Source: a virus
Direction: 5' to 3' (one strand)
IMG/VR virus record: IMGVR_UViG_3300027987_000212
Coordinates: 62,001-126,000 of that record
DNA length: 64,000 nt
Shown one piece after another: positions 5,001 to 56,062 of the stretch (position 1 is the first letter of the stretch; each line of letters starts with the position of its first letter). The position numbers and the translations under genes are program-made. The notes below the pieces were generated by a model that was not told the origin of the DNA, ran no database searches, and saw nothing but the letters and a program-made list of their open reading frames with translations.

Positions 5001-6166
5001 AGCGTGAGTTGCTTCCTACGCAACGTCCAAGCCAGGCCGGTACGGCCAATCACCATAGTGGCTGTCGCCACCTCAAGAATGTCCGTGGACACGACGCGGG
5101 TAACCAGCAAGTCATCCACCACGGTACTGCCCGCAAACGCGCCAATGGGAGACAGGACCATTGACGTCGTAACGGGGCCCACCGGGCCAATGAGTTGGGT
5201 GAAGTCTATGCCCGCGTCCAGTACACGAAAACGTGCCGTACGCCCGCCGGCAGCGCTGTCCGTTAGCGTTTGTCCCAAGGTACCCGCAGCAACAGCTGCG
5301 CCTAGCCCACCTCCGCGTAGCACATCTCGACCCATCTCTGGGTCGTTGAACCCAACAGTGTTGAGTCGGGTCACCTCAGGAAAGCTGTTTGTGAGCTTGG
5401 CCGCGATACCACGAAGCGTGACTAGAGAACGTTCCGTGAGTTGCTGCTGAACGGAGTCTACAAACTCAGCAGCGGTAGCTGCGTCCAACCCACCACGAAA
5501 CCTGCGCTGATTGGTAACTCGCACAGCTGCTTCCAGGTTCGCTACGGAAGACAGCTCATCCGGGCCGATATCGTACTTACTTCCCGGCTCCGCCGCGATG
5601 AGATTTACGTCGAAGTAGAACAGTCCAAGAGCATTGTCGTAGTTCAACAACATCTCTTCGACTCGAATACTCTGTGACTCTGTAGGCGGGTACTTGTACC
5701 CACTCTTAGACGTGAAGAAATTGACAGGGGTCAAGCTTACCTGTTGAGCTTGCGCAAAGTAGATGCGCCCCACACCCTTCGAGTATTCACCCTTGGGACG
5801 TTCCGCGAAAAGGTTAGCACCTAGTGCATCTGCTTCTTCCTCCGTGAGTACGTCACGGTCGCGGAAACTTTGCCCCTGCCGCACACGTACGACCTCACGT
5901 ACTACGGGGTCCCACAAGAGCTGCGCAGGCTTCACCAGCAAGTCCGTGAGAGCGTCACCGTCATCGACGGCCATGTCTGGATAAGCTTGCTGGAGCCGTG
6001 TGGTGACGAACGTCTCGAGGTCTACAGTAAAGGGGTCCGTCCCCAGTCGCCGCTTCAAGGGTTGAATGACCTGCTTATCGAAGGGTGCCCCCGGGCTCAG
6101 GTCCAGCGTAGAGTCGAACTGAGCAGCTCGCTCTCGAATGAACGCTTCAAGGTCTCGTATGGCCAT
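2096..6166 (-). CDS. Giant baseplate J-like protein (1356 aa)
   Basis: The N-terminal ~280 residues carry the signature of baseplate J / gp6-type wedge proteins: a start resembling 'LEAFIRERAAQFDSTLDLSPG', a segment PGSKYDIGPDELSSVANLEA near residue 195-215, and 'RRFRGGLDAAT' followed by a long amphipathic helix. Such proteins form the ring that triggers contraction of a myovirus tail. The family is usually 300-500 residues; here the remainder is a chain of beta-rich modules, one near residue 580 (GDTLRILDGADAGDYQVV) recurring in the 1028-residue protein at 16144-19230. Near residue 1140 a second J-like strand pattern returns (YYFDVELVSEGTGDAYNID). The start ATG overlaps the previous stop as TGATG, so it is translationally coupled to the gp25-like gene. 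Confidence 0.72.
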   Translation of the reverse strand: MAIRDLEAFIRERAAQFDSTLDLSPGAPFDKQVIQPLKRRLGTDPFTVDLETFVTTRLQQAYPDMAVDDGDALTDLLVKPAQLLWDPVVREVVRVRQGQSFRDRDVLTEEEADALGANLFAERPKGEYSKGVGRIYFAQAQQVSLTPVNFFTSKSGYKYPPTESQSIRVEEMLLNYDNALGLFYFDVNLIAAEPGSKYDIGPDELSSVANLEAAVRVTNQRRFRGGLDAATAAEFVDSVQQQLTERSLVTLRGIAAKLTNSFPEVTRLNTVGFNDPEMGRDVLRGGGLGAAVAAGTLGQTLTDSAAGGRTARFRVLDAGIDFTQLIGPVGPVTTSMVLSPIGAFAGSTVVDDLLVTRVVSTDILEVATATMVIGRTGLAWTLRRKQLTLSGIPGGILFPSAATGEVTINDNEVHIGGAVDIHVRGVSSDEATLIIDAVADDEPELSGSSATFNSGNTTQCTLADEVLEGTYLVGDSTYALLKRAARDSLSIQIVDGVNAGVYRILSVVQALTQSPVLTVTPAFTSGVAPIAQWRVFDDVNIALTDIKETRIAAGDLVTTQGSTDVTTGAGTDFDALGVSQGDTLRILDGADAGDYQVVEDPLTPGFTSLRLDRTLTLTQSGVQYTVFRANAAGNLLPPLVRVRSIELLDTSNQPLGTTIPYAKPVDIQSRAFQNPARGIKHTFVDTRLGLLTGNEPGGGFVVGGLTLDLSVGTAEFGISAVSITFTAGNKTATEVAAEINAATLAQVSEPSAAVVISDPDGDRVGFRPFGITGYVATIPSSAMPALFGNTQVYTTNDIRSSTAELTGWGNLNPLLDLATGLDVIQFIDGNQVGVVPGPYQVGYIFSGSLPSTALLPVELNRPLNPEIAVRAQVGSRSIGSVRLFFLEPTTFEARTNETYFSLVTEDGLVRFTPDPTLSHQQIPPLPSDVKPMDGSAMESSAVFASLNQDFVRAGILPGDTLVLDYIPLGGTIALADPVPNLVNKTLVFSVDGGPDHELIFIRDDGSIGATEVTRDGVVDQINAAAGIVIARLTNANTLEFEADVSVVIRGTGTANPLILGDVQGTSPTASFTSQQSNQSPVAGEYEIASVDSATQVTLVAAFAASAFSPYASTLVRQQYRVLRNGVQRISTGTMVDNEAEASLYYFDVELVSEGTGDAYNIDADQQLTAEGYRAEGYYLTTEDENLTFSTVERPRLVLSRSILEAGVDDDPTNATQLVGQNIQVTYERSSLVSNVNDYVTAETERTVCSSPLVRFLLPHFVRFDVTYIGGSSEEITVPALENHIVGLSPVEALESSNIQSILTNAGATSIENPLDLIAIVHGVDRSILAHRSQNRLTTGRLAAFLPDVLNVIRRIA

Positions 6167-34229: not shown

Positions 34230-34628
34230 TCAAATACCAAGGGTTCTTCGGACGCGCCCGCGGCGATTGGCGGGCACATGTCCCACCAGCTCCTGCAAGC
34301 GCTGCTTCTCGGCGTTGTACTCGAGCCGGTGGCGCGCCGCCGGCATGAGGCCGCCAAAGATGACGCCCGTCGCGGCACCCCCCGCAACTTCACGAAGGTT
34401 GGGGACCAACCCGCGGGACAACTTCCCGGAGATGGCCCGATTCAGAAACCCCGCTGCTGGCCCAGCAACCGACCCCACGGCAGCCCCACGAAGTACTTGC
34501 TCTCGCGTCGGCGCCGAGTGCTCGAGGTCCCGCAGACGCTCCGCACTCTGCAGGATGTCCTGGGGAATCGCCATAGCCGCGCGCTTCTCCAGGGCAGCCA
34601 AGCACGCCCCGAATAGCCCCAGACTCAC
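34230..34628 (-). CDS. Small Gly/Ala-rich probable ejection protein (132 aa)
   Basis: The middle has membrane-like Gly/Ala stretches (VLRGAAVGSVAGPAAGFLNR, VAGGAATGVIFGGLMPAARH) flanked by charged helices. It is coupled by a GTGA overlap to the InPase gene and precedes the zincin gene, so the three are made together. Membrane-active, ejected role inferred from composition and position. Confidence 0.5.
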   Translation of the reverse strand: MSLGLFGACLAALEKRAAMAIPQDILQSAERLRDLEHSAPTREQVLRGAAVGSVAGPAAGFLNRAISGKLSRGLVPNLREVAGGAATGVIFGGLMPAARHRLEYNAEKQRLQELVGHVPANRRGRVRRTLGI

Positions 34629-36580
34629 ACCGACCCCACTGCCGGCGCAGCACGCCCCAGAAGACCCGCAGCCCGCCCAGCAAACTGACCCAGTCTCGGC
34701 ATCACTCGCTGAGCAGCCGTGCCGACCGCGTCCTGCCCGATGTGCCCCGCCGTCTCGCCCAGGGCAGAGAGGGCCGGCGCGAGCTTGCCGCCCAAAACCC
34801 CCGCCGCGCTCAGCGGGATGTGCGCCGCCGCCCCCAAAGCACCGACCGAGCCAATCTCGCCAACCAAGCCAGCCTTACCCGCATGTTGTACCATACCTGA
34901 CCCTATACGCCTGGCCACATTGGAGCCGGTACCCTGCAGCTCTTTTCCGACACCCCGAGTGAATCCCTCGATGGCGCCCCCAAGTGGTACCCCCAACGGG
35001 TTCAACGCCTTCTTCAAACCACTGGAGTGCTGAAGGTGGTGGCCAGCTGCATGCGCTGTCTCCCCCGCGACGCGGTGGGCGACTGACGTCGGACGAATCT
35101 GCCGAGCTACTGCGCTCTCACCCGCGCTCAGCCCCTTGGTGACGGGACCCCGGAGCATCGCGCCACCCTCCGCCAGCCCCTTCCCCAAACCGCCGTGCCC
35201 CCAAGCCCCTCGCAACTCTGCCGGGCGAGCAAACCGCGAAGCCAGTGACCGAAGGGCCTCGCGGAATGCCTCCTTGTCTTGTTCAGCAAGCTTGTCTAGC
35301 TCACCAAAGAAGCCCAAGTACCTGTCACCCGCGTGCGCTCGGTAGTCCGTAGTCACGAAGGCCATCTTACCTTCAGTACTGGGGGGAAGGGCACTGATGT
35401 CACTGAGTACTACGTGCGGCCCCTCTATGCGCACACGCTCAGCAGGGTTTGGGGAAAGGTTCTTGGTCGGCACGTCTCCCTGCTTAGCGTACTTGGATAC
35501 CTGTTGCGGCCCCGCTGATAAGAACGGGTCTGCTGGTACCGTAGCCGCGCTAGTCTGCCGTTCCTCCACGAAAGGCGCCGTACGCACGATGTCTCGGTCG
35601 GGTACATCGCCCCGACGCTTCGGCGGTGGACGCCTACCCTCTACCCTGCTCGGTTCTTCGCCCGCACCCCACTCCAGCAAGGCCTGCCCCGGCATCGCGG
35701 AGATTTTGACCAGCTTCTTCCCAGACGCTACCTGTTGCTTGAGAGAGTCCATGGACACACGCACCACCTTCCCAATGAGAGACGGGTCATCGTAGTGCTT
35801 CAGTATCGCCTTGCGGGCATCGTCCCGCCCGGCAAATCCAAGCATGACCGTGTCTTCGTCGTACTTCCCCGACGGCGTCTTCTGCCGAACCACGAAAGCA
35901 TCCGGCGCCGACCGGTCAGGCCCAACGTACGCATCGACCTCATCCCCATCTGCACCCTTCGTTCCGCGGATGTACCCGTAGGGTAGCTTGAACTTCGTCC
36001 GCCACTTGGAGCCGTCATCGTTGGTACCCTCACGCACGGAGCCTTTGCGGTTCTCGATGTCGACAGTGAGGCCCTGGAACTTCGTACGCCCTTGAAGCTT
36101 GAACCCATCCTTGTTAGTTCCCAAAGAGGACGCGTACTTCAAACTCCCATCAGAATTCTCGCCGCGCCGCTCCAGCAATCGACGCCAACGCGTTTGGAGA
36201 CTAGCAGCAACAGCTTCTTTACCTCTCTCCATCTTCTTCAGCTTGGTGTAGTACCCGGGGTCTTCCGTTAGGTGGTCCATCGTTATCTCTCGCGCCAAAG
36301 CTGGTCGACTAGTATGTTCACTCTCGACACGCATACCTTGACGCAATGATGCTGCGCTAAAGTCACCCGGCTTCTTCTTGTCCGCCAAACCTCCAGGAAG
36401 TAGGTCAGCACCTAGCTTCGGACTCACCTCCGACGCATCCGCAGTTACTTGACCCACCGAACGTTTGAACAAGGTACCCTCCTTATCCTTGCGGAGGAGA
36501 GTCGACACACGCATTGGTCTTCGTCCGCGCCGACTTTGGGCCAAGGTGTACTGTGTTTTCGACGCGGCGTCTTTGAACAT
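34625..36580 (-). CDS. Polyvalent protein with InPase-like domain (651 aa)
   Basis: Residues ~165-295 match the inorganic-pyrophosphatase-like (InPase) domain known from phage and conjugative polyvalent proteins: FQGLTVDIENRKGSVREGT, then LPYGYIRGTKGADGDEVDAY, with the metal-binding acidic cluster D-G-D-E-V-D, and KYDEDTVMLGF. The N terminus is basic. The C-terminal ~300 residues are Gly/Ala-rich helices typical of ejected proteins. Known family context suggests counter-defence or nucleotide/pyrophosphate handling in the new host. Start ATG 36580 follows AGAGG; it abuts the 82-residue gene. Confidence 0.65.
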   Translation of the reverse strand: MFKDAASKTQYTLAQSRRGRRPMRVSTLLRKDKEGTLFKRSVGQVTADASEVSPKLGADLLPGGLADKKKPGDFSAASLRQGMRVESEHTSRPALAREITMDHLTEDPGYYTKLKKMERGKEAVAASLQTRWRRLLERRGENSDGSLKYASSLGTNKDGFKLQGRTKFQGLTVDIENRKGSVREGTNDDGSKWRTKFKLPYGYIRGTKGADGDEVDAYVGPDRSAPDAFVVRQKTPSGKYDEDTVMLGFAGRDDARKAILKHYDDPSLIGKVVRVSMDSLKQQVASGKKLVKISAMPGQALLEWGAGEEPSRVEGRRPPPKRRGDVPDRDIVRTAPFVEERQTSAATVPADPFLSAGPQQVSKYAKQGDVPTKNLSPNPAERVRIEGPHVVLSDISALPPSTEGKMAFVTTDYRAHAGDRYLGFFGELDKLAEQDKEAFREALRSLASRFARPAELRGAWGHGGLGKGLAEGGAMLRGPVTKGLSAGESAVARQIRPTSVAHRVAGETAHAAGHHLQHSSGLKKALNPLGVPLGGAIEGFTRGVGKELQGTGSNVARRIGSGMVQHAGKAGLVGEIGSVGALGAAAHIPLSAAGVLGGKLAPALSALGETAGHIGQDAVGTAAQRVMPRLGQFAGRAAGLLGRAAPAVGSV

Positions 36581-36828
36581 CACATCCTCTTCAGGTAATC
36601 CTGCACACCTACCGCTATCTCTGCCGCACGACGTGGGTCACGCGTGGCTACATTGGTTATCTGCGTCAAGGCAGGTAAGTCTTGCGGCTGAAGACCTCGA
36701 GCAAGCGCTTGTCGTGTCAGAGCGCTCACAACACTGCTTGCCGAGAAGTGGTCAACATCGAGGGCTGCGGGAGGGATAGAGCTCATGCACATAGTTGTAC
36801 CACCCCAACTTAGTGCTGCGGAAGTCAC
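36580..36828 (-). CDS. Small hypothetical protein (82 aa)
   Basis: It may begin at GTG 36828, overlapping the hub stop (GTGA), or at ATG 36792, with GGGGTGG upstream. The C-terminal helix (PALTQITNVATRDPRRAAEI) is regular. It sits between the hub gene and the InPase gene. Function unknown. Confidence 0.5.
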   Translation of the reverse strand: MTSAALSWGGTTMCMSSIPPAALDVDHFSASSVVSALTRQALARGLQPQDLPALTQITNVATRDPRRAAEIAVGVQDYLKRM

Positions 36829-42112: not shown

Positions 42113-45100
42113 CTACCCTAGTAATCCGCCAAGGAAGCCCCCGCCAGCGTTTGCCTCGGCATTCGACGTCTTCTGCCAAGTGTCCATCACAGCACTAGCC
42201 ACAGACTTACCGGACTTCTCGATTGCAGTCTTCAACTCGTCGAGCTTCTTGTTCCGTTCTCGGTCGAGTGGGTTCTCCTCTTCCTGCCGAGCCAACTTTT
42301 GCTTTGTTTGTGCTTCCTGGAACTTACCCGCAACAGCTGTGATTCTGCTTGCAGCCGTACCAGACTCGCCCTTCATCGTACTCTCGATGGCCTTCGTCAG
42401 GTCTTCGCCCACCCCACCCTGCATAGACACGCCTGAGCTTTCAGCCAACGCAGTAGCAATGTCAGACGCGCTCCGCCCTTGCTTGACCATACTTTGGATG
42501 TCTTTGGTGTCCAGTCCCGTACCCAGCGCACTGGCGATGGCTGCGATACCCCCGCCCTTGCCGCGCTTTGACCCCCGCTCGATGCGTGCCTGCAACGAAG
42601 CCTGCCCCAACAACGTAGACCGAATATCGCCGGTACCGGCCGTACCCTGTAGGGCGGCTGCCATGCGGCGCTTCTCGTCAACACTCATCCCCGACAACTC
42701 ATCCTGCTCGAGCCCAACCATCTTCTGAATCTGCCCAAAGATGGCGCTCCGCTCTGAGTCAGTTTGCCCCGCTGTACCGAGTTTGGCCTCCAAGCCCTTA
42801 CGTACTGTCGTACTCTCGAGGAACTGCTGCGCAGCAGTCTGACGGTCGTTCCCGCGGAAGCCAATAGACGCCATTCGGTCGGAGACATCCGTGGACAACT
42901 GCAGCTTGCCCGTCTCTGCGTTGCGTTGCAGCACCCCGCCACGACGCATGGTGTCGACTTGCTCCCGCGCTGCCGCGCCGTAACGCTCGGCTGCCTCCGC
43001 CCGCGCACTCTCTTGCCCTGCGGCCGCGACCCCGCCAATGCCTCTAGCGCGCCGACTTACCTCATCTGCGGTGAGCCCCGACTCCTTGGCCAAACGCTGG
43101 GCCACCGCGCGCTGCTCTTGCGGGCTCCCGGCGCCGCCAAGTTCTTGGGCGAAAATCATGCTCTGTAGAGCACCCTTGCGCCCCTCTTCCTGGTCGGTCA
43201 GCTCCCCCTTTCGCTGCAGCCGAGTGAGCTCCTTCTCGATGGACGCACGCGCCTCCCGGCGCACGCCCTCATTCTGGTCGAGCGCGCGAAGCGCGTAGTC
43301 CCGCCCCTCGTCGCTTGCCAAGTACTCCCCCGCGCCGCGCACGGCTTTCTCCGACAAGCCCCGGTCGGCATACTTCCCACCGCCCATCGCCGACGCAAGC
43401 CCCCGTAACCCCAGAGTTTGGGTCATGAAGCGCATGGTACGGCCCTGCCCCGACGTACCGAACAGGGCAGAGCCCACCGCCGAGTCCCGCTCGCCCACCG
43501 TCGAGAAGTTACTCGAGCCGTAGATGCCCTGCATCTCCGGCGAGGCAAACATGCTGGACTCCCCCTCAATGCCTGCCGACTCCGTCAGCGTAGCCATGAT
43601 TTGCGCGCGTTCCTCCGCACCTGCCTTGCGGTACCGCTCTTCGAGCTTGGAGAACTGCCCGCCTTTGTCTTGAGCGAGGCGCCCGAGGGCGCCCCCAAAA
43701 CTAGACAAGCGCTGCATCCCCTTACCCTCTACCGCGCCGAGCGCAAACTGCCTCCGAAGGTCGTCACCAGCCTCTGCCCCCAGCTTGGCTACGTCTGCGC
43801 GTCCGCGTAGCTCCGAGCCACCAGTCTGAAAAGCAGTCGAAACACCCCGAACCATGTCCAGCCCACGCTGCAACTCAGCATTCGTTCGAGAGGTACCCAA
43901 GTTGTACCCCGCTGCCTGATACCGGTCGGCGTCGACCTCTCGAAAAGACTCGAGGTCTGTCCGCGCCTTCCCGCCCAAACCAAAGTCAGCACCGCGTCCA
44001 CCTCCACCGAAGAGGCTACCGCCAACCCCAAGTGTGCGCCGCATTGCCTCGGCACCAGTCGCTCCGCCCTTCATGCCCGTCTCGTACGCGCGAGATACAT
44101 CCCTGCGCAGCTCCTTGACGTAGTTACCCGTGAGCTTGTTGATGGTACCTTCTACTAAGCCAGACATGTCCGTGTAGAAGTCCGCACCAACTTGCTGCAG
44201 CGTAGCCTGCACATCAGCTCGAGCTTTCTCGAACTTGTGCTTCAACCCTTCGATACCTGTGTGTGACTGACGCTGCTTCAACTTCTGTGCAAAGTCTTCG
44301 TCAGTTGCTGACTGCTTGCGCTGCTCCAGCATTGCTGGGAGTGCTTGAATCTGCTTCATCATCACATCGGCCTCATCGCGTCCAAGGCCTAGTCGACGCT
44401 GCATGAAAATCATGGAGCGGTCGTTACCCTCGTCCAAGTTCATCCCACGCTCATCCAGCCAGTTCTTCATCACCATGGCTGGCAGCAGACCACCAAAGCG
44501 CTCCATCGCAGCGCCGCGCAATCGACCTTCATTGCGAATGAAGTCTGCACGACCTACCTTCGACATGTTCTTCTGCCACATTTGGCGAGTCCGTTCCGTG
44601 CCGACGCCTCCGGACATGTACTCTTCGACATCGCCTTCATTGAGGCGCCCGCCTTTGCCTGCAACGGAAGCCAAGAAACGTCGCCCAAGCCCGCCCTTCA
44701 AGAATTGCGCAGTAGAACTCAACTGCTGCGTAGCCAACGCACGACGTCCTTCCGCCCCAGCCAACCCAGTAGCGTTGTAGATGTCCTCCTCACTCAAAGC
44801 ACCAGCCTGCTGAGCAACTCCGATGTTTGTCATCGTCTCGAGCCCAGCCTGTGCCCCCGCACTACCCAGACCGCCTATAGAGCGCGAAATCTGTGAACCA
44901 ATGTTCATCATGCCCGTCAACTCTGACGTTGCAAGACCACCAGCCCTAGCGCCGCTGCGAATCTTACGCGCAAACGACGTAGCCTGCTGATTGCCGAATA
45001 CGCCGCTTGAGCGCATCTCGCTCATCATCTTCTGCGCCTCTTCGAGGCTAGTACCCATCTCCGAAGCAATTTCCTTCAGAGACTTCACCATGGTGCGGAA

Positions 45101-45691
45101 CTTCTCGGTGAACTGCTTGGCATCACGCACACCTTGGTCCATGCCCATACGACCCATGTTGGTCGCAAGTCGTCCTAGTTCCTCGAAGCCCACCATTTCC
45201 CCCGCCTGCCCAGACTCCGTACTCATCTGGCGGAGAGACCCGCCAATGTCGCTCAGCTGCCCACGCGTGAACCCGTAACCGCCCTGCGGATTCGAGAACT
45301 GGTAGGTAGAGCGCATCAAGCCGTTGAACTGTTGCTGGCCTCGAGCACCTTCAAGCATCTGCCCGCCCGTATACGTCAGACCTGCCAAGGCGCCACTGGC
45401 TAAACCAAAAGCACCTAGCCCTGCTGCCCCCGCACCAAGTGCACCAAATCGGGAGCCGCCCATACCAGCCTTCAAGGCTAAAGACATGGGGTCCAGCCCA
45501 GCCATACCAAGACCCAAGGCCATGCCGGGGCCGGCAACGGCCGAGCCCACGTTGAGGGCGCGACCAACAACCCCCTCCGCCTCCGAGGCGCCACTCTGCG
45601 GCACGTTCAGCATTGAAGCGTGCTGCATTTGCATCATGTACTGTTGTTGGAAAGCCCCGCCCATCTGGGCAATCTCAGCCGAGGAAATCAC
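42113..45691 (-). CDS. Tail tape-measure protein (1192 aa)
   Basis: The long, helix-rich chain is full of Gly/Ala/Met and charged residues. Hydrophobic stretches lie near the N terminus (~45-115: VAGPGMALGLGMAGLD, LGAFGLASGALAGL), followed by ~1000 residues of predicted helix without cysteine. It is the first gene of the tail operon and precedes hub genes. This is the composition and place of a tape measure, whose length sets tail length (about 0.15 nm per residue would give roughly 180 nm, by the usual rule). The GTG start is 6 bases after TAGAGT and has no RBS. Confidence 0.72.
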   Translation of the reverse strand: MISSAEIAQMGGAFQQQYMMQMQHASMLNVPQSGASEAEGVVGRALNVGSAVAGPGMALGLGMAGLDPMSLALKAGMGGSRFGALGAGAAGLGAFGLASGALAGLTYTGGQMLEGARGQQQFNGLMRSTYQFSNPQGGYGFTRGQLSDIGGSLRQMSTESGQAGEMVGFEELGRLATNMGRMGMDQGVRDAKQFTEKFRTMVKSLKEIASEMGTSLEEAQKMMSEMRSSGVFGNQQATSFARKIRSGARAGGLATSELTGMMNIGSQISRSIGGLGSAGAQAGLETMTNIGVAQQAGALSEEDIYNATGLAGAEGRRALATQQLSSTAQFLKGGLGRRFLASVAGKGGRLNEGDVEEYMSGGVGTERTRQMWQKNMSKVGRADFIRNEGRLRGAAMERFGGLLPAMVMKNWLDERGMNLDEGNDRSMIFMQRRLGLGRDEADVMMKQIQALPAMLEQRKQSATDEDFAQKLKQRQSHTGIEGLKHKFEKARADVQATLQQVGADFYTDMSGLVEGTINKLTGNYVKELRRDVSRAYETGMKGGATGAEAMRRTLGVGGSLFGGGGRGADFGLGGKARTDLESFREVDADRYQAAGYNLGTSRTNAELQRGLDMVRGVSTAFQTGGSELRGRADVAKLGAEAGDDLRRQFALGAVEGKGMQRLSSFGGALGRLAQDKGGQFSKLEERYRKAGAEERAQIMATLTESAGIEGESSMFASPEMQGIYGSSNFSTVGERDSAVGSALFGTSGQGRTMRFMTQTLGLRGLASAMGGGKYADRGLSEKAVRGAGEYLASDEGRDYALRALDQNEGVRREARASIEKELTRLQRKGELTDQEEGRKGALQSMIFAQELGGAGSPQEQRAVAQRLAKESGLTADEVSRRARGIGGVAAAGQESARAEAAERYGAAAREQVDTMRRGGVLQRNAETGKLQLSTDVSDRMASIGFRGNDRQTAAQQFLESTTVRKGLEAKLGTAGQTDSERSAIFGQIQKMVGLEQDELSGMSVDEKRRMAAALQGTAGTGDIRSTLLGQASLQARIERGSKRGKGGGIAAIASALGTGLDTKDIQSMVKQGRSASDIATALAESSGVSMQGGVGEDLTKAIESTMKGESGTAASRITAVAGKFQEAQTKQKLARQEEENPLDRERNKKLDELKTAIEKSGKSVASAVMDTWQKTSNAEANAGGGFLGGLLG

Positions 45692-45749: not shown

Positions 45750-45830
45750 GTGGACGGTATGCCTACCCCAGTGGCTGGGGCAGGAGGCTTCTCTCGGTTG
45801 CTCCTAGGGAGTCCAGACCTTGTCCACTGA
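45750..45830 (+). CDS. Possible leader peptide (26 aa)
   Basis: GTG 45750 stands 4 bases after the motif and opens VDGMPTPVAGAGGFSRLLLG, ending at TGA 45828-45830. No RBS. The stretch 45692-45927 holds no other convincing gene; this frame may be a regulatory leader or nothing. Confidence 0.25.
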   Translation: MDGMPTPVAGAGGFSRLLLGSPDLVH

Positions 45831-45894
45831 AGTGCTGCTCAGCTCAGGGCTACTGGGTAGCACTTCTTTAGCCACGCAATTGCCGAGCTACTTC

Positions 45895-45903
45895 CGGGAT
45901 AAG
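45895..45903 (+). promoter_or_regulatory. GRGATAAS element before 45928 gene
   Basis: CGGGATAAG lies 24 bases before the ATG; AAAGGAG follows it. It gives a short normal leader for the three-gene plus-strand unit 45928-47179. Confidence 0.55.
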
Positions 45904-45927
45904 AACTACGAAAGGAGCAACCACAAC

Positions 45928-46164
45928 ATGTTACTACAAGTTGGCGCACTGTACGCGGGCATACGTGCAGCAACCTACGTTATCGAGCGGGTACTACTAC
46001 CTCTGAAAGGAATCAAGAGAGACGGGAGCACGACATTCGTAGAACGAACCATACTGGTGACGGCAGAGGAAGACCAGCGACTCAACGACGGTCCCTGGGG
46101 GGCTGTCCTCCGCGCAGGAGCGCAGCGCGCAGCAGACTATGCTGCCGTTAAGGGGGACGCGTGA
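45928..46164 (+). CDS. Small hypothetical protein (78 aa)
   Basis: ATG 45928 has AAAGGAG upstream. The N terminus (LLQVGALYAGIRAATYVIERVLLPL) is amphipathic and may associate with membrane. The stop overlaps the next gene start (GTGA). Function unknown. Confidence 0.55.
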   Translation: MLLQVGALYAGIRAATYVIERVLLPLKGIKRDGSTTFVERTILVTAEEDQRLNDGPWGAVLRAGAQRAADYAAVKGDA

Positions 46165-46556
46165 ACGAGAACAGTACAGCCACTACTGACGACTCAGGCG
46201 AAGGACGGGCACGCCCCCCGAGAAAGTCTGCGGAACCGCTCACTCACAGCCCCTTCGCAAACATCCACGATGTACTGCGCAAAAACGGACTTCGCCCACC
46301 GCGCATCATCAGTACACCCCCACCAAGTCAACCCGTCCGGAGAACACTCAACATGATGGACCACACCATTCACACAGTCCACGCCCCAACAAACACAGAC
46401 CAAGAATCCTTGCCCGAAGTTCCCGAACCTGCCGGGCGCGTGCGCATCTTCAACAACGCAACGACACGCAAAGTGCTCATCACAACACTCTCAGTAGGAT
46501 GTCTCGCAGTTATCGCTTTCGGTGTGCGTCAGTTACTTCGTAGAGGTGGTGGATGA
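46161..46556 (+). CDS. Tail-anchored membrane protein (131 aa)
   Basis: A long polar, Pro-rich N-terminal part is followed by one C-terminal hydrophobic span (VLITTLSVGCLAVIAFGV) and basic residues (RQLLRRGGG). That is the layout of a tail-anchored protein with a cytoplasmic head. Starts at GTG 46161. Function unknown. Confidence 0.55.
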   Translation: MNENSTATTDDSGEGRARPPRKSAEPLTHSPFANIHDVLRKNGLRPPRIISTPPPSQPVRRTLNMMDHTIHTVHAPTNTDQESLPEVPEPAGRVRIFNNATTRKVLITTLSVGCLAVIAFGVRQLLRRGGG

Positions 46557-47179
46557 ACTGCTACACCATCTACGAAGCAGCGGCTGAGGGCATCCGCGTC
46601 ACCCACGCTGAGGAAGGGTCCTATGTCGCGGTAGGCTCCGTCCGAGTGCCAGTGAGTGCGGATATACATGAGGCTGTCTCAGAGGTCATGCAAACAGCAC
46701 GACAGCAGCTAGCAGAGCACGCTGAGGAAATGGGGGTTGACCAGGTAGAAGCGTGTCACGCTCTTCTGCGCGCAAACTGGGTGCTGCTGCCTCATGCGCG
46801 CGTCAACAACGGAGTCATCTGCCGAAGGGGCTCCGACCGAGCTAATCGACGTAGCGCACTCGTACAAGTTGACGTAGGTGTCGGTGCCGGCGCCAATGGC
46901 CGGGTCTACTACAACGCGCGTACCTACCGCGAGCAGCTGCGTGGAGAAGGCCCGAGCGCCCACGTCGATATCCAGTACGACCAATTCCCCCCTCCGGGAA
47001 TCGAGGTACTGGCAGAAGATGGGCACTCGAAGCTCATCATCATGCGTCCACAGAGCGGGTTCAGGATTGTCCGGGCAGGTTTGCTCGAGGACGCGCCGCC
47101 GCGCCTTCTGACGACTTGGACGGGCTCAAACCTGTGGGTGCGGGGCGAGTACCCGCAGCGTCGCCGAGACGCGGCGTAG
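46553..47179 (+). CDS. Hypothetical protein (208 aa)
   Basis: ATG 46553 overlaps the previous stop. The sequence contains amphipathic helices (ADIHEAVSEVMQTARQQLAE) and a beta-rich second half (LVQVDVGVGAGANGRVYYN). Its last 119 bases overlap the convergent Zn-ribbon gene. No family recognised. Confidence 0.55.
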   Translation: MNCYTIYEAAAEGIRVTHAEEGSYVAVGSVRVPVSADIHEAVSEVMQTARQQLAEHAEEMGVDQVEACHALLRANWVLLPHARVNNGVICRRGSDRANRRSALVQVDVGVGAGANGRVYYNARTYREQLRGEGPSAHVDIQYDQFPPPGIEVLAEDGHSKLIIMRPQSGFRIVRAGLLEDAPPRLLTTWTGSNLWVRGEYPQRRRDAA

Positions 47180-47742: not shown

Positions 47743-48186
47743 ATGCAACACGGCAAGACCATGCGGGCACTAACGACCCAAGACGCCACTGAACTCGCTC
47801 AATTGGAGATACGGCTGTTTCCAGACAACTGCCTCAACGAGACAACCCTAAGAAATGAGATATCCCGTGGGGTTGGTTGGGCCATACTCGACAACCAAGG
47901 ACAACTAGCTGGATATGCGCTAGGCGTGTTCAGCGAAGCAAGCCAACTGTTTGACCTACTTCGACTAGGGGTCGTACCTGGGCACCGCCGACAAGGGCAC
48001 GGTCGCGCGCTGCTGCGCGCAGCCACTACAAGCTTCCCGAGGTGCATGCTTACCGTAGCTGCAGAGAACCAGGCGGCGCGCACACTTTACCACAACGAAG
48101 GGTTCAAACTACTGGGCGTACTACCAAGCGGGGCACTCCTGTTGTGGGTCACTTCATCGACACCAGCCGGTACTGCTTCCCGCTAG
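47743..48186 (+). CDS. GNAT-family N-acetyltransferase (147 aa)
   Basis: Motif A of GNAT enzymes is clear: LRLGVVPGHRRQGHGRALLR (V..x.RRxGxGxxL) for acetyl-CoA pyrophosphate binding. It is followed by motif B 'LTVAAENQAARTLYHNEGFK', as in RimI-like protein acetyltransferases. Target unknown; phage GNATs may modify host proteins or aminoacyl groups. Two possible ATGs (47743, 47761). It stands alone on the plus strand between leftward genes. Confidence 0.75.
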   Translation: MQHGKTMRALTTQDATELAQLEIRLFPDNCLNETTLRNEISRGVGWAILDNQGQLAGYALGVFSEASQLFDLLRLGVVPGHRRQGHGRALLRAATTSFPRCMLTVAAENQAARTLYHNEGFKLLGVLPSGALLLWVTSSTPAGTASR

Positions 48187-51271: not shown

Positions 51272-51509
51272 CGACGTACTTCACCCCATCCAAGTAGTCC
51301 CGCAAACCAGCGAGCGGGAAACGAGTAGCCAAGTACTCGATGACCTCCTCATGCATGGCATCCAGCTCTTCGGAGGTACGCCCAACAAACCGCTCGCTCA
51401 GAGTCTTCTCCATGTCGCGCTTGAGTGTTGCGTTCAACCCTATCCAGGTGGGCAGCCACATGTAGTTCAAGGCGAGCACACCGTTGTCATCGAAGTGAAC
51501 AAAGCGCAT
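51264..51509 (-). CDS. Small hypothetical protein (81 aa)
   Basis: Starts ATG 51509 at a TGATG junction with the GroES-like gene. It has a mainly helical body (LNATLKRDMEKTLSERFVGR). The overlap with the RHH gene is 8 bases. Function unknown. Confidence 0.5.
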   Translation of the reverse strand: MRFVHFDDNGVLALNYMWLPTWIGLNATLKRDMEKTLSERFVGRTSEELDAMHEEVIEYLATRFPLAGLRDYLDGVKYVDG

Positions 51510-51874
51510 CACGAAAACCTGGTAGTACAGTCATCAGAAAGTTCTAGCAACACGTCGGTCTCTCGAATGAGCACCTCACCGTCCCGTAGGTGATGAAGCA
51601 GCAGCGCACCGTTCTTGGTCTGCACAGCTGCTGCTGGAAACAGCACACGTACACCGGGCGTCGCCTGTGTCGGGATGAAGCGCTTCTCGCGCGAGTACCA
51701 GCGACCCGGCCCAACTTGAGTAACGCGCCCCACGTAGAACCGCACTGATGCGTAGGTGTCTGGGATGACTATGCCACCCGCAGTTTTTTCGGGCACCTCC
51801 TCAAGCTCTACGAGGAGCCAATCATTCAGCAGTTTCTTCAGCTGAGGCACTGGTTTCTCCTGGCTCGAAGACAT
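51509..51874 (-). CDS. GroES-like co-chaperonin (121 aa)
   Basis: The Cpn10 pattern is clear: NDWLLVELEEVPEKTAGGIV, 'PDTYASVRFYVGRVTQVGPG', a mobile region, then 'GVRVLFPAAAVQTKNGALLL' and GEVLIRETDVLLEL. Length fits a GroES with a small insertion near the middle. Phage GroES homologues such as T4 gp31 replace the host partner on GroEL for folding of capsid protein. No GroEL is seen in this window. It starts at ATG 51874, within the end of the previous gene. Confidence 0.75.
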   Translation of the reverse strand: MSSSQEKPVPQLKKLLNDWLLVELEEVPEKTAGGIVIPDTYASVRFYVGRVTQVGPGRWYSREKRFIPTQATPGVRVLFPAAAVQTKNGALLLHHLRDGEVLIRETDVLLELSDDCTTRFS

Positions 51875-53880: not shown

Positions 53881-54089
53881 CTGACACCTACAGAGGGTAT
53901 GGGTGGTACCGAAGGCTTTACCTTGGTTTGGTCCGCTAATACGCGTGCGCTATCCGCGAGTCTCTTCAAGTTAACTAGTAGCATACACGCCGCATCGTCA
54001 CCTGCAGAACTCGCCGTCGGCAGGAATGCGACGCAGTCCTCCGTGCAAGGCCTATCCATGTGCAGGAAGCAGCGCTTAGTTCCGGGCAC
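53877..54089 (-). CDS. Small Cys-rich protein (70 aa)
   Basis: GTG start 54089. Cysteines at CFLHMDRPCTEDC near the N terminus suggest a metal site or disulfides, followed by a helix (AACMLLVNLKRLADSARVLA). Overlaps the Zn-ribbon gene by 14 bases. Unknown function. Confidence 0.48.
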   Translation of the reverse strand: MPGTKRCFLHMDRPCTEDCVAFLPTASSAGDDAACMLLVNLKRLADSARVLADQTKVKPSVPPIPSVGVR

Positions 54090-54474
54090 GCACCTGCTCC
54101 TCTTCTAGCGCTCGACGCTCTTCCACCAATGCCCGAAATACCCCACGCTCCATCGCAGCGAAGTACCTGGCCAACACTTTGGGATTCGGGGGTAGTTGCA
54201 TGAATCCCCACTTCACCAAGAATGCCGCCATTGGTGTAGCAGCCGTTCGCGCCAAAATGCCGCGCAGCTCACGCACTGCAGAGAACAGCACCGACTCGTT
54301 GTCGAAAAACTCGTGCGCAAACGGCGTAGCCATCAACTGTCTACGCTGCCCTCGCCACGAACACGAAGTGCACGCACAAATTGCCGTGTCCAGCGACATC
54401 GTCAACTCGTTCTCCCACGACAACGAGGGACTGCCACACTGCGGACAGAAGTAAGCTACAGCGTCCGTCGTCAT
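54076..54474 (-). CDS. Zn-ribbon protein (132 aa)
   Basis: A four-cysteine zinc ribbon is at the N terminus: CPQCG and CTSCSWRG (residues 10-40). The remaining ~90 residues are helical. It is encoded directly after the tail-assembly chaperone pair. Structural zinc and nucleic-acid or protein binding inferred. Confidence 0.58.
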   Translation of the reverse strand: MTTDAVAYFCPQCGSPSLSWENELTMSLDTAICACTSCSWRGQRRQLMATPFAHEFFDNESVLFSAVRELRGILARTAATPMAAFLVKWGFMQLPPNPKVLARYFAAMERGVFRALVEERRALEEEQVRARN

Positions 54475-54845
54475 TGGCGCTGTCCTCGCGCGTTGTACCG
54501 AGTCGCCTGAACACGACTGGTCAACCTCGATGGCAGCAATGCGCGGACACCGACAGGACCCCTGCGTACCTCCTCCTCGAGCATCCTGTACGCACTGGCA
54601 AACTCAGCCTTTCGCGAACTCTCCAGGTAGGGGAAAGCCAACTTCATGTAGTCCTCAAAGGCCTTCATGCCACCCTCCTCGTCTAACTGCAGCTGCGCTG
54701 CGGCGCGAAAACGAGCGTGTTCGATAATCTCCTCCTGCATGAGCGCAAGTAGCAGCACTGACTCCCGAAGAGACCCTTCTGGGGGTGGCGCTCGAAGGGT
54801 GCGCAGCATCAGCTTGGCGCGCGCCCAACCAACGGGAGTCTTCAA
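54471..54845 (-). CDS. Tail-assembly chaperone extension (GT-like T part, 124 aa)
   Basis: The frame opens with TTG 54845 but is entered more plausibly by a -1 ribosomal frameshift at GGGAAAT (54854..54848), two codons before the stop of the 406-residue gene. Slipping fuses that protein to this one through W-L-K-T-P. It is helix-rich (ARAKLMLRTLRAPPPEGSLR; FEDYMKLAFPYLESSRKAEF), as in lambda gpT-type extensions. The TTG start as an independent protein is the alternative. Together with the 406-residue protein it would chaperone the tape measure. Confidence 0.65.
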   Translation of the reverse strand: MKTPVGWARAKLMLRTLRAPPPEGSLRESVLLLALMQEEIIEHARFRAAAQLQLDEEGGMKAFEDYMKLAFPYLESSRKAEFASAYRMLEEEVRRGPVGVRALLPSRLTSRVQATRYNARGQRQ

Positions 54846-56062
54846 CCATTTCCCAGGTCATCGGCCTTGAACAGCTCCCGTACCCGAAGCTCGAACCAGT
54901 GACAATTGAGTCCGATACTTGCCAGCATGTGGACCGGTAGCCGGCCAATCTGCGCCGCTTTTGCGAGGAACAGGCTGTCATTGAAAGCGCCATCCTTATC
55001 GAGGAAACCTGGGTAACGCTTATCGTTCACCTGATGCAGGCAAGTTACTAGGGTGTAGAATGCCAGTCGGTCTAGTACGTACCTCTCCGTTGCGTTCAAC
55101 GAAAAAGCTTCCTCCATCGCTAGCCGTTTGATGGATTGCTCAGACACCCCATCATAGGAACGCAAAACAAGCGTAAACCCTTTACGAATAGGCACCACCT
55201 GTTCGATGTACCCACGCTCTAGCATGGCATCGATGGTAAGCGGCTTCAGTCGTCCCTCGATGAGCTTTCGTTGCTCTGGCGTATTCAGGATGTCCGCCTC
55301 CGACGCTCTTCGCCATCGGTCCAGCTGGAAGCCATCTATGTGCATCAGGTTGTCGACCATGTTTTGGTCGACACCTTCGCTCCCGGTCCCCCCTTCTGCG
55401 GGTCTCCCACTCGGGGTTTCCGGTTCTTCAGCATCCGCAGCCCGTACCTTCTGAGAGGCAGACATAGCCGCAAGCCCTTGCAGAGTATCCGGACGTAGCT
55501 GCGTAGTCCGGACTGACTGCAGCTGCTGTGGCGGAACTACCCGCCCGTCGCGTAACACTCCGTACTTCGCGGCCAAGTGGGGCTGTGCCGCCGCAAACTG
55601 CGCCCCACTGCCGCGCTGCGCCGTCGGGTCCCTCAGCGCTTCGGGGGGCAGCAAATCGGTCGGGCGCAGGTCGAGCTGTGGTGGACCCCCCGCCGAAACT
55701 GCCTGGCCTAGTGCTACCGAGCTGGGCTCAACAATGCTGCCCGCACCCTGCCCTCCTACCGGGACCACAACGCCTGGGGGCGGCTGTCGTTGCGCAGCAG
55801 CATGCTGCTCCAAGGTCATCGGCGGTGCTTGGTCATCGAACGCGCTGTCCAACCTAGGAATGCTCGGGCCAGGTCCCCCTGCCACGGGTAGGGTTGCTTT
55901 CCGCGGGCTGGCCGCCTCTCGTCTAGCACGTTGACCATCCAAGTAGGTTTGCGCGGCCGCACGCGCCGCTGGCGGTACTGCTGATGTAACGTGTGGGGCA
56001 ACCGTGGGCGGGTCCGTGTAGTGCACGGGGCGCTCATTCGGCGTAGGGGGTCTTTGTGCCAT
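54842..56062 (-). CDS. Tail-assembly chaperone (G-like, 406 aa)
   Basis: The last ~140 residues (IRKGFTLVLRSYDGVSEQSI; 'RYVLDRLAFYTLVTCLHQVN'; 'NCHWFELRVRELFKADDLG') resemble tail-assembly chaperones. The first ~260 are Pro/Ala/Gln-rich and probably disordered. The stop is two codons after a lambda-type slippery heptamer. G/GT proteins bind the tape measure during tail assembly. It starts ATG 56062 with AGAGGAG upstream, downstream of a terminator. Here the gene lies ~10 kb from the tape measure, but in the same direction. Confidence 0.6.
   Translation of the reverse strand: MAQRPPTPNERPVHYTDPPTVAPHVTSAVPPAARAAAQTYLDGQRARREAASPRKATLPVAGGPGPSIPRLDSAFDDQAPPMTLEQHAAAQRQPPPGVVVPVGGQGAGSIVEPSSVALGQAVSAGGPPQLDLRPTDLLPPEALRDPTAQRGSGAQFAAAQPHLAAKYGVLRDGRVVPPQQLQSVRTTQLRPDTLQGLAAMSASQKVRAADAEEPETPSGRPAEGGTGSEGVDQNMVDNLMHIDGFQLDRWRRASEADILNTPEQRKLIEGRLKPLTIDAMLERGYIEQVVPIRKGFTLVLRSYDGVSEQSIKRLAMEEAFSLNATERYVLDRLAFYTLVTCLHQVNDKRYPGFLDKDGAFNDSLFLAKAAQIGRLPVHMLASIGLNCHWFELRVRELFKADDLGNG
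54848..54854 (-). promoter_or_regulatory. -1 programmed frameshift site (GGGAAAT)
   Basis: The in-frame arrangement CTG|GGA|AAT gives a perfect X-XXY-YYZ slippery heptamer G-GGA-AAT, two codons before the stop. The -1 frame leads directly to the 124-residue frame. A GC-rich self-complementary stretch (GGGCGCGCGCC) lies about 20 bases downstream and could be a stimulatory structure. Lambda uses G-GGA-AAG for the same purpose. Confidence 0.75.

Follow-up and report, generated by a model that had tools for sequence, protein, structure and literature searches.

The window studied here, a stretch of 64,000 nucleotides, corresponds to bases 62001-126000 of a 185,327-base IMG/VR virus record and carries on its minus strand two overlapping ORFs. 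ORF1 (56062-54842, minus strand) encodes as its zero-frame product a G-like protein of 406 aa, composed of a low-complexity, proline-rich N-terminus (residues ~1-230) followed by a folded C-terminal domain; its zero-frame stop lies at 54844-54842. The -1 frame of the same strand is open from 54857 to 54471 and reads PGKWLKTPVGWARAKLM... It contains the T-like domain of ORF2 (54471..54848, minus strand), of 125 aa when counted from the first W codon (WLKTPVGWA...). The start codon of this frame closest to the junction is a TTG at 54845, which overlaps the ORF1 stop as TTGA.

Read on the minus strand, the ORF1/ORF2 junction is GAT GAC CTG GGA AAT GGT TGA AG. The first-pass annotation had proposed that a G-GGA-AAT heptamer precedes the ORF1 stop and that a -1 frame continues beyond it, and both are present: the slippery heptamer G_GGA_AAT occupies 54854-54848 (minus strand) and is separated from the stop TGA by one codon (GGT). 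It had also announced products of 406 and ~530 aa with DDLGNWLK at the junction, as the ORF coordinates indeed predict, since a slip after AAT would join ADDLGN to WLKTPVGWAR in a fusion of 405 + 125 = 530 aa. Judged from these frames, ORF2 would be translated as a fusion to ORF1. The chance of finding a slippery heptamer here, given the three residues encoded and the codon use of ORF1, is ~0.09, and the window heptamer by itself is weak evidence for a frameshift. It becomes significant because it is conserved, as GGGAAAT or AAAAAAT, in nine of ten homologous contigs.

Slip site and start codons among relatives

With ORF2 as query, one distant relative was recovered. Relatives were sought with DNA patterns of the shared W-x-KTP-x-GW motif, in which the heptamer was not required, and then by an alignment search. 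Nine further IMG/VR contigs were found (L002, L007, L008, L012, L013, L014, L030, L093 and L192; L010 is the same stretch as L007). In all ten members, window included, an ORF1 homolog ends just past the slip site and the T-like frame lies in -1. Among the aligned members, identity to the window is ~22-37% over the C-terminal domain of G and 27-42% over T (alignment A6). The records are all contigs from metagenomes, and in statistical terms the relatives do not count as independent. ORF1 gave no match by tblastn against phage records or in a search of viral contigs, and scans of genome contigs gave no relatives. The AAATGG pattern matches L193, L194 and L196-L200 were rejected as homologs, with weak T-profile scores and no upstream G-like frame.

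The heptamer is GGGAAAT in five of the ten contigs (window, L007, L012, L014 and L030) and AAAAAAT in four (L008, L013, L093 and L192), and both types are followed by GGN and then a stop. All three X bases switch jointly between G and A among members. Every heptamer-bearing member has T as its Z base, which would follow if this base also opens the TGG codon that is invariant in T. In L013 the heptamer takes its first base from a TTA, a codon present once among 48 Leu codons; in L093 it does so from an ATA, present once among 15 Ile codons. When 113 pattern matches were checked, a slippery heptamer was present at this place only in the two clearly recognised by the T profile. Loss of the heptamer in close relatives had been named beforehand, along with the lack of a spanning peptide, as what would speak against frameshifting; the slip site is kept in nine of the ten members, only L002 being without a true heptamer, and the proposal was not refuted.

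L002 reads CTA AAA ACT at 5990-6004, where the A_AAA tetramer is kept, the true heptamer is missing and the run counts five A's; one extra A would join the two ORFs in frame. This contig may use slippage of a single tRNA, or may have lost an A. Such A-runs, with six A's in four members and five in L002, are also what an explanation by RNA polymerase slippage would call for, and the effect of one extra A in L002 would equally suit one long ORF split by an assembly error. We hold both to be extremely improbable, since the GGGAAAT of five members offers no sufficiently long run to the polymerase and an assembly error would not strike ten contigs at one and the same position.

The start codons of the second frame are also informative. 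The codon following the W of T is TTG in the window and L007 and ATG in L002 and L014, so that a start overlaps the ORF1 stop in these four members. It is CTG in L012, L013, L093 and L192, TTA in L030 and CTA in L008. The first ATG, GTG or TTG is encountered only past the WLKTPxGWA motif in L008, L013, L030, L093 and L192, and falls within it in L012. Six of the ten members thus have no start overlapping the ORF1 stop, and a complete T domain is only possible there as a fusion. Translational coupling, by which ribosomes terminating at TGA would begin again on the TTG that overlaps it (TTGA) and make a free T protein, could make use of the TTG or ATG of the four former members. However, as far as their codons tell, reinitiation at a standard start cannot yield a complete T domain in the six others, and coupling accounts neither for a heptamer that alternates between G and A and is built with rare codons, nor for the stem described below. 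We consider coupling very unlikely.

RNA stem downstream of the slip site

A stem follows the heptamer after a spacer of 7 nt (54841..54847, minus strand), which holds GGT and the zero-frame stop TGA. The 5′ arm (54829..54840, minus strand) reads GACTCCCGTTGG, of which the first 8 nt are paired, and the 3′ arm (54760..54771, minus strand) reads TCTTCGGGAGTC, of which the last 8 nt are paired. This stem was absent from the first-pass annotation and was found in the present follow-up. The spacer is 7 nt in the window, L008, L012, L013, L030 and L093, and the best helix begins after 5-6 nt in L002, L007 and L014. In five members the stem closes a loop of 55-65 nt; its uninterrupted helix measures 8 bp in the window, 12 bp in L008, L013 and L093, and 13 bp in L030. 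In L002, L007, L012 and L014 this 5′ arm pairs instead with a closer partner, giving 5-8 bp and weaker support (p 0.05-0.19 each).

Helix scores compared with random synonymous recoding gave a combined Fisher p of ~9e-8 over nine members, a value that overstates the significance because these members are related and not independent. In a gapless alignment of five members, 96.7% of the cells are paired and covariation reaches 0.417, versus 0.158 in shuffled alignments. L192, discovered after the stem had been defined, carries both heptamer and stem; with it, 95.8% of the cells of six members are paired and covariation is 0.378, versus 0.140 when shuffled (none of 500 shuffles as high) and no more than 0.117 with slid partners. 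The covariation set is small (five to six sequences), and in the constant half of the stem the protein imposes a constraint of its own through the T-P and E-S codons. Two pairing registers occur, for which reason RNAalifold failed to detect the stem across nine members; member-by-member inspection resolved this. A stem with compensatory changes, beginning 7 nt 3′ of the heptamer, is thus present in six members; this distance falls within the 5-9 nt at which a structured stimulator is looked for. These comparisons support a role of the downstream stem as 3′ stimulator of the -1 frameshift. To our knowledge, covariation has rarely been used to demonstrate stimulators in this class of phage frameshifts.

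Predicted folds and gene order

Searches of Pfam and PHROGs returned no family for ORF1, ORF2 or the alignment members. AlphaFold2 modelled the G C-terminal domain with a pLDDT of 83 and the T domain, all-helical, with a pLDDT of 80. In a Foldseek search of viral predictions, the closest fold match to the G C-terminal domain is A0A6J5LLT0, an uncharacterised protein of an uncultured Caudovirales phage (E=6e-14, 29% identity), which on these models is likely a member of this G family. It is followed by the tail-assembly chaperone of Rhodococcus phage Finch (E=4.7e-4, probability 1.00), a second uncharacterised protein (9.7e-4), and gp181 and gp182 of Bacillus phage G (E=1.8e-3 and 4.1e-3, probability 1.00). 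For the named chaperones the structural match is incomplete (TMq 0.39-0.51). Weaker matches include further frameshifted tail-assembly chaperones and a pre-tape-measure chaperone. The fold search of PDB with the G domain and the fold search with the T domain gave no match, and hhalign against the Finch and phage G chaperones returned low, non-significant probabilities. In the annotations of both Finch and phage G, the tape measure is immediately preceded by a short chaperone and its longer, joined form, and slippery sites lie near the chaperone stops, GGGAAAA in Finch and AAAAAAC in phage G.

The order of transcription on the minus strand is terminase large subunit, major head protein, sheath, tube-like protein, G/T and putative tape measure. 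The tail sheath matches phrog_279 (3e-8). The tube-like protein (253 aa), without a family match, is putatively assigned from its position beside the sheath and from its conservation; both proteins are present in the nine records searched (9/9). The sheath frame here (L136 1635-4736, record 127534-130635) is 1033 aa long and only its C-terminal part matches the sheath family; open frames of the sheath in relatives extend up to ~1500 aa. The tube-like matches G001:C1:130770-131486 and G008:C1:165406-166113 each contain one in-frame TGA.

The putative tape measure (42113..45691, minus strand), a protein of 1192 aa with no Cys, 0.8% Pro and a composition rich in Gly, Ala and Gln, gave no library match and is designated as such from position, conservation and composition. 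Its homologs in G001, G002, G006 and G008 measure ~1100-1300 aa and lie downstream of G/T on the same strand. In lambda, the G/GT genes are encoded between the tail tube and the tape measure. Similarly, G/T of the window follows the tube-like gene and precedes the putative tape measure, all on one strand, without being adjacent to the latter. Adjacency of chaperone and tape measure is usual, not defining, for lambda-type pairs.

The first-pass annotation had remarked on a distance of ~10 kb to the tape measure, with opposite-strand genes between. The gap is real, 8.8 kb in the window and ~6, 12, 15 and 18 kb in G002, G001, G006 and G008, respectively. The intervening opposite-strand genes hold for the window, where four plus-strand ORFs separate the frameshift pair from the putative tape measure, and none were seen in G002: the ORFs at 45820-47179 and 47743-48186, the latter a clear GNAT acetyltransferase (plus strand), have no counterpart seen in this relative of most similar spacing. 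The separation from the tape measure belongs to the lineage, and the genes in between form a partly conserved block. Directly after ORF2, and overlapping its end, is a small zinc-ribbon-like ORF (54076..54474, minus strand) with homologs directly 3′ of T in several relatives. The tail-gene block also includes a Cpn10/GroES-like protein (51509..51874, minus strand; Pfam PF00166, E=1e-9), whose family f3 is found in the window, L017, L177, L178, L180 and L182, with homologs in most relatives.

Partial fold matches without a sequence match, together with distances of 6-18 kb to the tape-measure candidate and of 8-51 kb to the tube-like gene (in records with simple order), could also be reconciled with a true frameshift pair serving another function, e.g. 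another baseplate or tail assembly factor. We think this unlikely, though less so than coupling, for the named proteins matched in fold at E <0.005 are all frameshifted tail-assembly chaperones, and the tape-measure candidate, where found, is downstream of G/T on the same strand.

Proposed mechanism and comparison with known pairs

In lambda, gpG and gpGT arise from a -1 frameshift of low frequency; binding to the tape measure is the task of G, and T brings in the tail tube protein (PMC5009743). This G/GT arrangement occurs widely among long-tailed phages, even though their sequences show little similarity (PMC5009743). We propose that ORF1 and ORF2 are very probably a tail-assembly chaperone pair of the lambda G/GT type, expressed via programmed -1 ribosomal frameshifting. 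The frameshift itself is supported by heptamer conservation across ten divergent contigs, by second frames without a start and by the covarying downstream stem; the assignment as tail chaperones draws on partial fold matches to two annotated frameshifted chaperones and on the position between the tube-like gene and the putative tape measure. The pair is classed with lambda G/GT because its features that can be tested on sequence behave the same. The mechanism is known, and the protein family is new.

According to the proposed model, in which frameshifting, its frequency and the binding partners of both proteins are predicted, most ribosomes would stop at TGA and release the 406-aa G-like protein. 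A minority would pause at the stem beginning 7 nt past the heptamer; the tRNAs paired to GGA (P site) and AAT (A site) would shift onto GGG and AAA, and translation would then resume at TGG into the T domain and give the 530-aa GT-like protein. The analogy with lambda suggests that the G domain would coat the tape measure and the T domain would bring tail-tube subunits to it.

The window pair and lambda G/GT have in common overlapping ORFs, the second in -1, an X_XXY_YYZ heptamer shortly before the first ORF ends, a G+T fusion (here predicted) and a location between the tail tube (here tube-like) and the tape measure (here putative). They differ in the A-site codon, AAG in lambda and AAT here, and by the much longer ORF1 with its low-complexity N-terminus, the covarying stem and the lack of detectable sequence similarity; moreover, the present pair stands apart from the tape measure, in a sheath-bearing phage record of 185 kb. 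Finch gp46/gp47 partially matches the predicted G-domain fold and shares the -1 layout (GGGAAAA near the gp46 stop) and an upstream sheath, whereas the Finch pair is directly before the tape measure, displays no significant sequence identity and has a T part without evident similarity. Phage G gp181/gp182 likewise partially matches the G-domain fold and shares a heptamer near the stop (AAAAAAC) and the -1 fusion, predicted here, but is directly before the tape measure and combines a short G domain (115 aa) with a long T part without evident similarity to T here.

As to whether these pairs constitute a separate chaperone family of large contractile-tailed phages, defined by a frameshift driven by a long-range RNA stem that spans ~80 nt, a constant 7-nt spacing and a block with a GroES-like gene before the tape measure, we judge the chances to be about even. 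If so, chaperone and ruler would not be kept adjacent because a conserved block including the GroES-like gene lies between them. The analysis provides a likely function for two protein families without library match and, in the covarying stem, a testable stimulator. A slippery heptamer combined with WLKTPxGWA can also serve to mark tail modules where large environmental phages are poorly annotated.

Elsewhere in the window, a 652-aa protein (34625-36583, minus strand) contains an inorganic-pyrophosphatase-like domain (PF18823, 6e-38), which also occurs inside phage head, endolysin and antirestriction-type proteins (PHROGs).
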